DNA from: Antrihabitans stalagmiti
Lineage (GTDB): Bacteria > Actinomycetota > Actinomycetes > Mycobacteriales > Mycobacteriaceae
Direction of reading: 5' to 3'
NCBI RefSeq assembly: GCF_016482825.1
Contig: NZ_JAEMNV010000007.1
Location: 62,001-126,000, forward strand
Length of the DNA: 64,000 nucleotides
Position numbers and translations under genes: made by a program
Shown: piece by piece, positions 28,248 through 37,632 of the stretch
Layout: every line of letters begins with the position of its first letter
How positions within the stretch are numbered: position 1 is the stretch's first letter
The notes under the pieces: generated by a model
Database searches by the model: none
Told to the model about the DNA's origin: nothing
Seen by the model: only the letters and a program-made list of their open reading frames with translations

Positions 28248-28628
28248 CTAGCGACTGTCGTGCGTCACCGTCGGAGTCGATCCACCTGCTGCAGTATGAA
28301 ACTCACCGAACGCGGCATAGGCACGTGGGCCGTAGACCGTGCCGGGACCACCGTTCATCAGGATCGCCACTCCGATGGCTTCGGCTGCCTCCTGCAGCGT
28401 TGCTCCCGCATTGACCGCGCCCTGCGCGTGAGCGGCAATGCAGCCGTCGCATTGTTTGCCGACAGCTATTGCAAAAGCGATCAGTTCCTTCGTCTTCACG
28501 TCCAATGCACCTGCGCGCAAAGTGGCGCCGTGCAGTTCCGCGTAGCCACGATAGACGTCGGGGATCGCCCGTCGCAGTTCGCGGGCGGGTGTGCGTAGCT
28601 CTTCGCGGACCGCTTTTCCGTATGTCAT
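28248..28628 (-). CDS. Carboxymuconolactone decarboxylase (AhpD-like) family protein
   Basis: 126 residues. The AhpD-type active site CDGCIAAH gives Cys60, Cys63 and His67, with the upstream Glu in KTKELIAFAIAVGKQ. Such proteins are thiol-dependent peroxidases or reductases. It follows the class V enzyme gene by 31 bp on the same strand, so it is likely co-transcribed and may handle persulfide or peroxide by-products (inference). It converges on arsA. Confidence 0.85.
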   Translation of the reverse strand: MTYGKAVREELRTPARELRRAIPDVYRGYAELHGATLRAGALDVKTKELIAFAIAVGKQCDGCIAAHAQGAVNAGATLQEAAEAIGVAILMNGGPGTVYGPRAYAAFGEFHTAAGGSTPTVTHDSR

Positions 28629-28659
28629 TTCTTGTTCCCTTCGCGACGAGCTGTGGTTG

Positions 28660-30351
28660 TCAAGTGGTGGCGACGCACCGGGGTGGCAGGTGAAACCAGC
28701 GCAGTGCTTCGAAATCCTCTGTCAGCCCGGTCTTTCCGGACTTAATGAGATCCTCGCGACATGCCATGATCGCGGCCGCATCGCAGAGGTGGGTGCCGAG
28801 TACGTCCTCCCCCAAGGTGAGGTGCGGGGATGTGTCCACCAACGGCTCTGCGCCCCATTGGAGATCGATCAGCCGAAGCAACCGTCGAGAGGTGCCGGCA
28901 CGGTGCCGCCACAGCCCGGTGTGGGGTTCGAATCTGTAGTCCTCCAAGAGACGGTGACCCTGTCGCGCAATGAGATCGACAGCATCGATGATGTAGTCGC
29001 GGACCGTATCGGAAATGAAGTAGTTGAAGTTCACCCGCGCCCACCCCGGTTTGATGCCGTCGCAGCCGACTTCGATTTCGTGCCTGAACGCGTCGGAGTG
29101 CGTGGAATCGATCGCGAGCAGCCGGTGTCCGTACGGGCCGGCGCACGAGCAGCCACCCCGCGCCTGGATCCCGAAGAGGTCGTTGAGTAGAGCGACGACA
29201 TAGTTGTGGTGCAGATACTTGTCGGCGACACGGATGCGAAACGACACGATCGACAGACGGGGCGCATCGTGGTTGCCGAGGATCTCGATGCCAGGATTGT
29301 CCGACCAGCGACGAAGAGCGTGTTGCCAGAGTCGCTCCTCGTTGGCCTGGATTCGGTCGGTACCGACGGCGTCCTTCAGCGCAAAGACCAGCCCGGCTCG
29401 GATAGATTCGACGATCGCCGGAGTCCCGCCCTCTTCCCGAGCGACAGGATCGTCGAGGTACCGGTGGCTGTTCGGTCCCACGAAAGCGACTGTGCCGCCG
29501 CCGGGGACCGTCGGTATCGCGTTACGAACGAGTTCACGCCGGACCACCAGCACACCCGGAGTCTGCGGGCCTCCGATGAATTTGTGCGGCGACAGAAATA
29601 TCGCGTCCTTGTGGTCACCCCGGCCGGGCCCGCTTTCGGACACGCGCACCGGCGTGTACGGCCCAGCGGCCGCGTAATCCCAGAAAGACAACGCGTTGTG
29701 CGCGTGCAACAGAGCAGCGATCGCATCCACATCGGTCAGTAAGCCGGTCACGTTCGAGGCAGCAGAGAAAGACCCGATCCGCAACGGCCTGGCCGCATAC
29801 CGGTCGAGGGATCTGGCCAAATCCGCCAGATCCACGTGCCCGTCCGCATCCTCTCCTATAACCACAACGTCGGCGATGGACTCCCGCCACGGCAACTCGT
29901 TCGAATGGTGCTCATAGGGTCCAACGAACACCACCGGTCGATTCTCGGGCGGGATCGGTTCGGCCATCGGCTGACGCAGTTCGAGAATGTTCACGAGTTT
30001 GTTGATCGCGCCCGTGACCCCGCACCCGCAGAAGATCACCAGATCGTCGTCGCCACCGCCAACCGAATTGCGAATAATGGCGCGTGCGTCTTCGCGCAGC
30101 AGGGACGTCTGCAGTCCGGTACCGGAACTCTCGGTGTGCGTGTTGGCGTACGTCGGCAACACCCGCGTGCGAATGAAGTCTTCGATGAAGTCCAACGAGC
30201 GGGCCGACGCGGTGAAATCGGCGTACACAATCCGCCGACAACCGTACGGGCCGTACAGGACCTCGCCCTCTCCGATGGATCCGCGCCGTATCCGCGCCAC
30301 CAAATCGTCGACGGATTCGGGGGCGACTTCTCGCGGTGGGTGATTCGTCAT
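28660..30351 (-). CDS. Class V aminotransferase-fold PLP enzyme (cysteine desulfurase-like)
   Basis: 563 residues, longer than SufS/IscS (about 400). The PLP Lys is Lys257 (LSPHKFIGGPQTPG), with SASN and DYAAAGPY motifs of the fold. In the loop that holds the persulfide-forming Cys in desulfurases it has RGGCSCAGPYGHR, with Cys401 and Cys403. The last 100 residues are an extra segment not seen in SufS. It is divergent from the sulfide:quinone oxidoreductase gene across 204 bp containing a DosR-like site. Cysteine or cysteine-like desulfuration is the best guess; selenocysteine lyase or another C-S lyase activity is possible. Confidence 0.8.
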   Translation of the reverse strand: MTNHPPREVAPESVDDLVARIRRGSIGEGEVLYGPYGCRRIVYADFTASARSLDFIEDFIRTRVLPTYANTHTESSGTGLQTSLLREDARAIIRNSVGGGDDDLVIFCGCGVTGAINKLVNILELRQPMAEPIPPENRPVVFVGPYEHHSNELPWRESIADVVVIGEDADGHVDLADLARSLDRYAARPLRIGSFSAASNVTGLLTDVDAIAALLHAHNALSFWDYAAAGPYTPVRVSESGPGRGDHKDAIFLSPHKFIGGPQTPGVLVVRRELVRNAIPTVPGGGTVAFVGPNSHRYLDDPVAREEGGTPAIVESIRAGLVFALKDAVGTDRIQANEERLWQHALRRWSDNPGIEILGNHDAPRLSIVSFRIRVADKYLHHNYVVALLNDLFGIQARGGCSCAGPYGHRLLAIDSTHSDAFRHEIEVGCDGIKPGWARVNFNYFISDTVRDYIIDAVDLIARQGHRLLEDYRFEPHTGLWRHRAGTSRRLLRLIDLQWGAEPLVDTSPHLTLGEDVLGTHLCDAAAIMACREDLIKSGKTGLTEDFEALRWFHLPPRCVATT

Positions 30352-30463
30352 GTAGTTCGGTCCGATCGATCGAGTTGCCGTTCCGCAGTCCTTTGCCGAA
30401 GCCCTCGAGCCATCGTCTCACCTCCCCCACTCGGCGTGTACGTGGATTTGGTCGATCGTCGTG

Positions 30464-30477
30464 CGGACCAAAGGCCC
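30464..30477. promoter_or_regulatory. DosR-box-like site between SQR and class V enzyme genes
   Basis: CGGACCAAAGGCCC; its reverse, GGGCCTTTGGTCCG, matches the DosR core at 11 of 14 positions by eye. It lies 78 bp before the SQR start and 112 bp before the divergent enzyme start. Confidence 0.5.
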
Positions 30478-30555
30478 TGTCAGGCAGCGCTCTTCGCGAC
30501 AAGTGTGGACGAGGATCATCCGATTGCACTGTCGATCGACACCGGAGGCACGGTA

Positions 30556-36469: not shown

Positions 36470-36503
36470 CCGTCTTGCACCCGAGAACGGCGGCGCGGCG
36501 ACC

Positions 36504-37277
36504 ATGACACTCGCCCTCGCCTTCTCGGTCGGTATCGCCATCGGAGCACTACTCGGCCTCCTCGGTGGCGGCGGCTCGATTCTCGCGGTTCCCGCTCTCG
36601 TCTACGCGCTGAATTTGCCTCTGTCGGAAGCGATTCCAACCTCGTTGCTGGTGATCGGCATAGCGTCGGCAACCGGCGCGCTACCGAAGATTCGAGCCCA
36701 CGCCGTCGAATGGCGCATGGCCGGGATCTTCGCCGTGACAGGCATCGCGGGAACGATCCTCGGCTCCACGATCGGCAGACACGTCCCCGACAATGCCGTC
36801 CTCCTCGGTTTCGCCGTTGTGATGATCGCTGCGGGGATCCGCATGCTCCGCGGCGGTGACGATGTTGGAACCGCCTGCAGCACCGACGGTTCCGGCATCA
36901 ACTGGCTCCGCTGCGCGCCGCGGTCGATTCCTACCGGATTCGGGGTCGGAATTCTCACCGGATTGTTCGGTGTAGGTGGCGGCTTCCTCATCGTCCCGGC
37001 GTTGGTACTACTGCTCGGAATCGAAATTAGCGTGGCGATCGGAACGTCGTTGGTGGTAATCGTCGCCAACTCGGCGGCAGGGCTCGGCGCGCAGCTCGAC
37101 GGCCTCGGCTCCAACTGGTCGTTGACCGTAGCCTTCGCAGGGGCTGCGATCGGAGGCTCCCTGCTCGCGGGCAGGTACAGCTCGCGCGTCGACGGCGCGA
37201 CTCTTCAGCGCTGGTTCGCCTACCTGGTTTTCGCCGTTGCCGCGTTCGTCGCCGTAGACACGATCTTTCTCGGCTAG
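36504..37277 (+). CDS. TauE/SafE family sulfite or thiosulfate exporter
   Basis: 257 residues from ATG 36504. Two repeats of the family are visible: [21 protein letters not shown] near the N-terminus and [21 protein letters not shown] at about 150. Eight spans are likely. These proteins export sulfite, thiosulfate or related sulfonates. In this module it would discharge the products of the persulfide dioxygenase-rhodanese. It is followed 85 bp later by the CstR-like gene. Confidence 0.9.
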
Positions 37278-37308
37278 CGCCGACGCTGCGATGAGACACA
37301 TAGCACAA

Positions 37309-37324
37309 TGCCCCCCCGGGGTAC
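37309..37324. promoter_or_regulatory. Probable autoregulatory CstR operator
   Basis: TGCCCCCCCGGGGTAC, 38 bp before the cstR-like start. It resembles the two other GC-tract palindromes in the module. Two GGTACC copies lie alongside at 37320-37325 and 37332-37337. Confidence 0.55.
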
Positions 37325-37362
37325 CATCGCGGGTACCTGTGATCACTATTCGAGGAGACACC

Positions 37363-37632
37363 ATGGTCGGCGACGACGACAGCATCGCATTGGTACTGAA
37401 CCGGCTACGACGCGCCCACGGACAACTGGCTGGCGTCATCGGCATGATCGAGAACGGTCGGGACTGCAAAGACGTCGTCACCCAGCTCGCAGCCGTATCG
37501 AAAGCTCTCGACAGAGCTGGATTCAAGATCGTCGCAACCGGACTTCGGGAGTGCATGACAGGCGACACAGCGGACAACAAGCAACCCATGACCGAGGCCG
37601 AACTCGAGAAGCTGTTTCTCGCCCTGGCCTGA
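37363..37632 (+). CDS. cstR: CsoR/FrmR-family repressor, probably CstR-like persulfide sensor
   Basis: 89 residues from ATG 37363 (GAGGAG five bases before). It is an all-helical DUF156 protein with [19 protein letters not shown], then Cys35 (GRDCKDVV) and Cys64 (LRECMTGD). Copper-sensing CsoR needs a His four residues before the second Cys; here that position is Gly60. The copper site is therefore incomplete, and a dithiol persulfide sensor is more likely. The genes beside it (SQR, persulfide dioxygenase, TauE) and the nearby operators agree. It should repress the module until persulfides link Cys35 and Cys64 of adjacent subunits. Confidence 0.85.

Follow-up and report, generated by a model that had tools for sequence, protein, structure and literature searches.

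A putative CstR-controlled module for sulfane-sulfur disposal in Antrihabitans stalagmiti and its small cysteine-rich protein

The subject of this work is a group of ten genes in the actinobacterium Antrihabitans stalagmiti, located at positions 28248-37632 of a 64,000-nucleotide stretch of contig NZ_JAEMNV010000007.1 (positions 62,001 to 126,000, forward strand). This whole stretch is called the window, and coordinates are given in its numbering. Judged from the encoded proteins and the operator-like sites between them, the group is quite likely a module of actinobacterial type for the disposal of sulfane sulfur (persulfide or polysulfide), controlled by a CstR-type repressor and preceded by a separately acquired gene of sulfide:quinone oxidoreductase (SQR).

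Results

Gene content of the locus and its copies

All the genes named in an earlier note on this DNA were recovered at their positions using the open reading frame list and Pfam domains, and the two genes that it had placed on the opposite strand are indeed on the minus strand, the rest being on the plus strand. The same-strand run extends from the SQR gene to the repressor gene, with SQR and the persulfide dioxygenase (PDO) gene 114 bp apart; the gaps after the PDO gene measure 25 to 88 bp.

The PDO (31873-33285, plus strand; Pfam and PDB matches) has a CstB-like layout. Its metallo-beta-lactamase (MBL) domain contains the HxHxD motif in THFHADF from residue 55 and TPGHT from residue 109; this is followed by a pseudo-rhodanese lacking the cysteine and by a last rhodanese with Cys419. 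The best PDB matches, 3tp9 and 3r2u, aligned across nearly the full length, and we take 3r2u to be CstB. An MBL HxHxD motif followed by a rhodanese with an active-site cysteine is the pattern of type III PDO/CstB enzymes, to which the protein can be assigned by its motifs.

Downstream of the PDO are a 55-residue Cys-rich protein (short name CysR; 33319-33486, plus strand), an MMPL/RND transporter (33553-35721, plus strand; Pfam MMPL 6e-71 in two stretches), a YgaP-like transmembrane protein (35747-36007, plus strand; Pfam 2.3e-6), which is the gene formerly described as DUF2892-like, a DUF302 protein (36044-36469, plus strand; Pfam 9.3e-22) and a TauE/SafE sulfite-exporter family protein (36504-37277, plus strand; Pfam 1.1e-45). 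The run is closed by a CsoR-family repressor (37363-37632, plus strand; Pfam 5.4e-23). Reading from the ATG at 37363, Gly60 stands between Cys35 and Cys64 in place of the copper-binding histidine, as had been proposed. The residues are thus Cys-Gly-Cys and not Cys-His-Cys, which upholds the assignment to the CstR type. The best PDB match was 7mq1, a Cys-Asn-Cys protein deposited as 'csoR' and presumably the pneumococcal CstR. By its conserved cysteine pair without the copper histidine, the window repressor is assigned to the CstR subgroup of the CsoR family.

The same genome (6.39 Mb in 44 contigs) contains a second, largely collinear copy (locus L012), in which the Cys-rich, MMPL, YgaP-like, DUF302, TauE, CstR and PDO genes form one run; its MMPL and CstR are 85% and 92% identical to those of the window. 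The same seven genes are present in two Rhodococcus plasmid loci (L009 and L010), where the Cys-rich gene is unannotated. Plasmid NC_008271 of Rhodococcus jostii RHA1 also has matches to the Cys-rich, MMPL and CstR genes. The PDOs of L012, L009 and L010 are 34-36% identical to the window PDO. On plasmid pDK1 an 81% identical PDO adjoins a Cys-rich gene and is near a 71% identical copy of the desulfurase-like gene of the window. Beyond the latter there are transposase and reverse-transcriptase genes, and then an MMPL-CstR-YgaP-DUF302-TauE-PDO run. Compared in this way, the window appears to be assembled, mosaic-like, from such module pieces.

Operator-like sites

In Streptomyces coelicolor the CstR homologue binds ATACCn6GGTAT and is freed from it by polysulfide, both cysteines being needed (PMC7533328). 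Three stretches resembling this sequence, which the earlier note had not pointed out, were located in the module. O1 (ATACCCCTGGGGGTAA, 31803-31818, one mismatch) is 54 bp 5' of the PDO gene. O2 (33258-33273), an exact site, overlaps the 3' end of the PDO gene, 45 bp 5' of the Cys-rich gene. O3 (TGCCCCCCCGGGGTA, 37309-37323) is a weak, degenerate stretch before CstR that was read from the sequence. The second copy carries TGCCCCCAGGGGTA 5' of its CstR.

The exact pattern occurs at four sites in the genome, two of which are just 5' of the genome's two Cys-rich genes (33258 in the window and C40:427657 in the second locus). With up to two mismatches, 15 sites were counted in the window against 7.0 expected, and none of 100 shuffles reached 15. 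In the case of the stricter core TACCCCnnGGGGTA, the site at 31803 upstream of the PDO is the sole exact match in the genome; of seven further sites with one mismatch, the window contains one and the second copy two. Since the reversed-pattern control also gave a count of 8, the stricter-core scan itself indicates no enrichment.

An exact operator was found within 150 bp 5' of 32 of 89 Cys-rich genes, compared with 0.23% of 12,523 random windows, and in a second set at 29 of 77 genes, compared with 93 of 10,833 random windows (0.86%). The typical position is 40 bp 5' of the start codon. When 45 distinct sites were aligned, the consensus ATACCCCc.GGGGTATa.t was obtained, which holds more bases than the search pattern demanded. 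Exact operators precede 9 of the 38 Cys-rich genes that have a CstR gene within 5 kb and 23 of the 51 that do not. O1 and O2 are best described as predicted CstR binding sites.

The family of the small Cys-rich protein

The conserved positions of the 55-residue protein are C2, C7xxC10, C18xxH21 and C35xC37. It gave no Pfam or NCBIfam match at E<=10, and assignment to a known family was discarded for this reason; the protein belongs to a family that has no Pfam or NCBIfam model. A Pfam scan of 89 members returned three families, with one member each (E 0.0056-0.0087), and the PDB search with the family profile returned a single match with E 0.11. Family matches were present in 119 of 296 genomes of a class-wide sample. 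The plasmid tally has eleven entries by genus, of which the ten given by name are all actinobacterial, and 50 of 60 plasmid records, among the matches listed, carry no annotated feature under the match. Cys-rich genes are also kept in genomes of only 1.2-1.8 Mb in one family (f27), five of which have no CsoR-family match.

All 89 members of the alignment, which leaves out one divergent member without C2 (locus L037), share C2, C7, C10, C18, H21 and C35. The last conserved position ends a CxC in 55, a CxxH in 102 and another arrangement in 7 of 164 distinct proteins. Because cysteine and histidine replace each other there, the position is suggested to be a metal ligand, and the seven strongly conserved Cys/His positions together suggest a structural zinc site and an open thiol site. 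The AlphaFold2 model consists of two strands and a helix. Most likely this small protein holds a metal, probably zinc, and binds or relays sulfane sulfur.

The neighbourhood of the gene was surveyed in two sets of loci. The first set, of 79 loci, is the upper part of the class-wide match list with a few places skipped, and includes the second copy of the A. stalagmiti genome. The other set consists of the best 80 of at least 560 confirmed loci; two of these repeat loci of the first set and five groups have identical gene DNA, which leaves 71 after dereplication. In the 6-kb distance count and the co-occurrence count given further below, CstR-type means a PF02583 match of 45-90 bits, three matches below 45 bits having been dropped. 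In the two sets of loci, a CstR match was found no farther than 5 kb from the Cys-rich gene at 32 of 79 loci in the first set and at 57 of 80 (51 of 71 dereplicated) in the second. Any module gene, that is a match to the CstR, MBL, TauE, DUF302 or (rather broad) rhodanese profile, was found at 47 of 79 and 71 of 80 (62 of 71) loci. The matches are concentrated close to the gene: 30 CstR and 22 TauE matches lie within 4 kb, against 1 and 0 beyond 5 kb in similar lengths of DNA. The linkage is seen in many genera, with differing gene orders. The recurring set comprises the PDO, Cys-rich, MMPL, YgaP-like, DUF302, TauE and CstR genes and leaves out SQR.

The MMPL clade and the mobility of the module

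The MMPL protein has the two Asp-Tyr pairs with a recognised role in such transporters, one in each half (D271-Y272 and D614-Y615). Its scores are below the curated NCBIfam values for MmpL3 (199 against 1400 bits) and actII (188.3 against 874.7 bits). Clade matches (E<=1e-120) were present in 74 of 151 genomes of the host's family. The window protein is up to 87% identical to the MMPLs of Rhodococcus plasmids; among the plasmid matches listed, there is a drop in identity from 61.8% to 33.4%. At the loci examined, which were 29 of the 30 best-scoring ones, the own genome being left out, an operator-like site with at most one mismatch was present in 29 of 29 cases, compared with 6.7% of shuffles, and a module gene lay within 1.5 kb in 28. 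The link is confined to the window-type clade and to the family genomes; class-wide it is the exception. Both the Cys-rich gene and the MMPL clade are predicted to be genes of the CstR regulon, and the most likely role of the transporter is the export, driven by protons, of a hydrophobic or thiol-bound sulfur species.

Some module stretches are shared between records. A 6.9-kb CstR-DUF302-PDO-TauE-MMPL-Cys-rich stretch is about 96% identical in Nocardioides sp. Root140 (L155), N. allogilvus (L161) and Knoellia remsis (L164), which by this likeness reads as transfer between genera. An 8.86-kb module stretch is 99.97% identical in records titled Brachybacterium paraconglomeratum (L129) and Enemella evansiae (L131), and this identity would point either to very recent transfer or to contamination.

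Such mobility is what one would expect if the two additional genes were passengers, the Cys-rich protein being a general stress or zinc protein and the MMPL a lipid exporter, both co-travelling on plasmid-borne modules. Many Cys-rich genes are solitary, and across the class MMPL matches are scarcely more frequent close to them than farther away, which agrees with this explanation. We nevertheless consider it improbable, as exact operators also precede Cys-rich genes that have no CstR nearby, the linkage recurs across many genera in varied gene orders, and nearly all top loci of the MMPL clade adjoin a module gene.

The SQR gene and the divergent gene pair

The SQR (30556-31758, plus strand) has the solved SQR 3hyv as its best PDB match (1e-72) and contains two cysteines in total, Cys160 and Cys346, which are the residues of the pair noted before. 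This homology, together with the putative redox-active pair, is what is expected of an SQR. The further cysteine that has a role in the 3sz0 enzyme aligns with a threonine.

No homologue at E<=1e-40 was found in 150 other genomes of the family, the own genome being the only one of 151, and the closest plasmid relative, among the matches listed, is 39.5% identical. The window SQR had no match in L012, L009 or L010. The intergenic stretch between the desulfurase-like and SQR genes has no operator-like site with up to two mismatches; the nearest one upstream of SQR, at 29797 with one mismatch, is inside the desulfurase-like gene. On these three grounds, namely its rarity, its lack in the second and plasmid copies viewed and the missing operator-like site directly before it, SQR was discarded as a core member, and it is best seen as an accessory, acquired separately and standing outside the recurring module.

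The alternative is that all ten genes constitute a single functional system of fixed content, from SQR through PDO to export. Their adjacency, the common strand from SQR to CstR with short gaps, the presence of an SQR-like match no more than 5 kb from the Cys-rich gene at 4 of 79 and 1 of 80 loci, and the joint rise of the proteins of an SQR-PDO-rhodanese cluster in R. erythropolis MI2 (PMC5157978) speak in its favour. The distribution of SQR and the lack of a site directly 5' of it speak against it and leave it with little probability. The description of the locus as a 'complete', self-contained unit was an overstatement, because SQR has no directly preceding operator-like site and is not a recurring part.

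The two genes on the minus strand are linked accessories. The AhpD/CMD-family protein (28248-28628; Pfam CMD 7.9e-20) has a CxxC at residues 60-63. In the class V aminotransferase, a cysteine-desulfurase-like protein (28660-30351; Pfam 5.6e-41), the pyridoxal-phosphate lysine in PHKF and Cys403 align with SufS-type enzymes, but the NCBIfam sufS score is 122.2 against 475.1 bits. AhpD-like matches adjoin the desulfurase-like gene in loci L203 (49% identity) and L202. The pair stands next to the module in pDK1 and R. antarcticus, and a desulfurase-like match was found in 2 loci of the 80-locus set; few relatives have the pair linked to the module.

A two-domain ArsA-type ATPase (26129-28153; Pfam ArsA_ATPase 5.9e-97) lies immediately upstream of the AhpD-like gene. 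Within 21800-46000 the window also encodes a GNAT protein, a cation:proton antiporter with TrkA-N, a potassium channel/TrkA protein, a PEP-synthase-like enzyme, a universal stress protein and a wax ester synthase. The neighbours of the pDK1 module include universal stress protein, antiporter and nitrate reductase genes. Such surroundings are perhaps a low-oxygen or stress island.

Persulfide-type and copper-type regulators

The residues of the CsoR-family proteins were checked near the Cys-rich genes and in 30 of 50 high-scoring CsoRs. In the loci of the Cys-rich gene the copper histidine was missing and both cysteines were kept in 34 of 34 proteins in one count and in 63 of 63 (some of them repeats) in the 80-locus set; the intermediate residue was Gly, Ala, Ser, Asn or Glu and never His. 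Cys-His-Cys was found in all 30 top-scoring CsoRs from the same genomes, and it is retained in the other CsoR of the A. stalagmiti genome. A listed Cys-rich gene was found at a distance of up to 6 kb for none of the 50 high-scoring CsoRs, compared with 41 of 70 lower-scoring ones. Of 60 genomes with the Cys-rich family, 54 had a CstR-type regulator, as did 17 of 60 genomes without the family; the comparison is uncorrected for kinship, and the genomes without the family were taken mostly in list order, without matching by family.

In mycobacteria the copper metallothionein MymT is under the control of RicR. A corresponding copper module, with a copper CsoR/RicR repressor and a Cys-rich copper metallothionein, might be read from the CsoR-family repressor and the small Cys-rich product, from the operator shape near to RicR sites (PMC7533328), from RicR as the top NCBIfam match of the repressor, though with 40.1 bits against a cut-off of 175, and from the heavy-metal P-type ATPase or multicopper oxidase near some plasmid copies, yet we regard it as very improbable and have discarded it because the copper histidine is missing, copper-type CsoRs are far from the Cys-rich genes, and the neighbours are PDO, TauE and rhodanese.

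Discussion

Control of the module by a CstR-type repressor, with SQR as a later addition, remains the reading that we prefer, and several observations weigh against it. The four exact operators in the genome do not exceed chance, estimated at about six for ten fixed bases; since their number is at chance level, their placement alone is telling. O1 and O3 deviate from the pattern. Copper RicR/CsoR sites have the same operator shape, so the residue test bears most weight. As for the small protein, none of the five module profiles (CstR, MBL, rhodanese, TauE and DUF302) gave a match up to 5 kb away at 32 of the 79 loci, and CsoR-family matches were lacking altogether in 5 of the 60 genomes that carry the Cys-rich family; therefore it has at least one other setting. 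Its structural model is of moderate quality (pLDDT 74, pTM 0.39). In case of the transporter, only 8 of 79 and 9 of 80 loci have an MMPL gene at most 5 kb from the Cys-rich gene, the MMPL-profile matches number 9 within 4 kb and 6 beyond 5 kb (ratio 1.5), and an operator-like site was found within 220 bp 5' of only 4 of 25 MMPL matches.

In the mechanism that we propose for the CstR-controlled module, CstR would occupy the ATACCCCnnGGGGTAT-like operators upstream of PDO and of the run of Cys-rich, MMPL, YgaP, DUF302, TauE and CstR genes. Sulfane sulfur would modify the cysteine pair of CstR and cause its release from DNA, as was shown for the S. coelicolor homologue. PDO would then oxidize a low-molecular-weight persulfide, probably mycothiol persulfide, to sulfite, its rhodanese domain would transfer sulfane sulfur, and TauE, by its family, would export the sulfite. 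SQR may feed in sulfide from its own promoter. The Cys-rich protein, probably zinc-bound, would hold or pass on sulfane sulfur, and the MMPL would pump out hydrophobic or thiol-bound sulfur species, driven by protons. The earlier view of the locus as a sulfide module can be kept as far as a CstR-type sulfane-sulfur module is meant; it finds no support for SQR and the desulfurase/AhpD pair as fixed members.

A further proposal is more tentative, and we would put it somewhat below an even chance: the 55-residue protein would found a new actinobacterial family of CstR-controlled, metal-bound carriers or buffers of sulfane sulfur, and the MMPL clade would represent the first RND/MMPL pumps specialised in sulfane-sulfur export. 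If it is true, MMPL export of polysulfide, S8 or a mycothiol-bound form is a third disposal route beside PDO oxidation and TauE-mediated export of sulfite. What is known of persulfide homeostasis in actinobacteria is a circuit of sensor, dioxygenase and exporter, which two further recurrent families would extend. Many Cys-rich genes have CstR-type operators though CstR is elsewhere, and the family could serve as a marker of the regulon. The two families would offer concrete knock-out targets.

Comparison with known systems

The CstR-CstA-CstB-SQR system of Staphylococcus aureus resembles the window in its CstR-type repressor, CstB-like layout, TauE and SQR; the window differs in its SQR, which has no directly preceding operator-like site. 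To our knowledge the S. aureus system has no MMPL, Cys-rich protein or DUF302. That the first two are additional to it was anticipated in the earlier note, and what can be added is that both recur in actinobacterial modules.

In Rhodococcus erythropolis MI2, the proteins of an sqr-PDO-rhodanese-exporter cluster rose some 4- to 13-fold with an organic disulfide as substrate (PMC5157978). It shares with the window SQR, an MBL-rhodanese fusion and a putative sulfite exporter, and Rhodococcus is also the genus of the plasmid loci; the likeness is one of description and not of sequence, and the part of the paper at hand does not discuss CstR, MMPL or a small protein. The 'SUL module' of an Antarctic Arthrobacter plasmid has a CsoR-family regulator, a sulfur dioxygenase, TauE, DUF302 and 'a small hypothetical protein' (PMC6305408), and on the Arthrobacter plasmid pA8H1 we found a Cys-rich family match between CstR and PDO. 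It differs in having two separate rhodaneses and an MFS transporter in place of the MMPL, and the accessible text (PMC6305408) says nothing further of the small protein.

The ScCsoR-PDO-TauE-Rhod circuit of S. coelicolor (SCO0618-SCO0621) has the two-Cys CstR-type repressor, the ATACCn6GGTAT operator, the PDO-rhodanese and TauE in common with the window, whereas its gene order is different and no MMPL, DUF302, YgaP-like protein, SQR or Cys-rich protein is described in the accessible part of the paper (PMC7533328). Among the titles and abstract beginnings listed by text searches, no paper was found giving the Cys-rich family or the MMPL clade a role in a CstR regulon, and an earlier remark may exist in the fuller texts. 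Since the S. coelicolor circuit, the Arthrobacter SUL module and the Rhodococcus cluster have been published, the kind of module is already known; what looks new is the membership of the Cys-rich family and the MMPL clade in its regulon.

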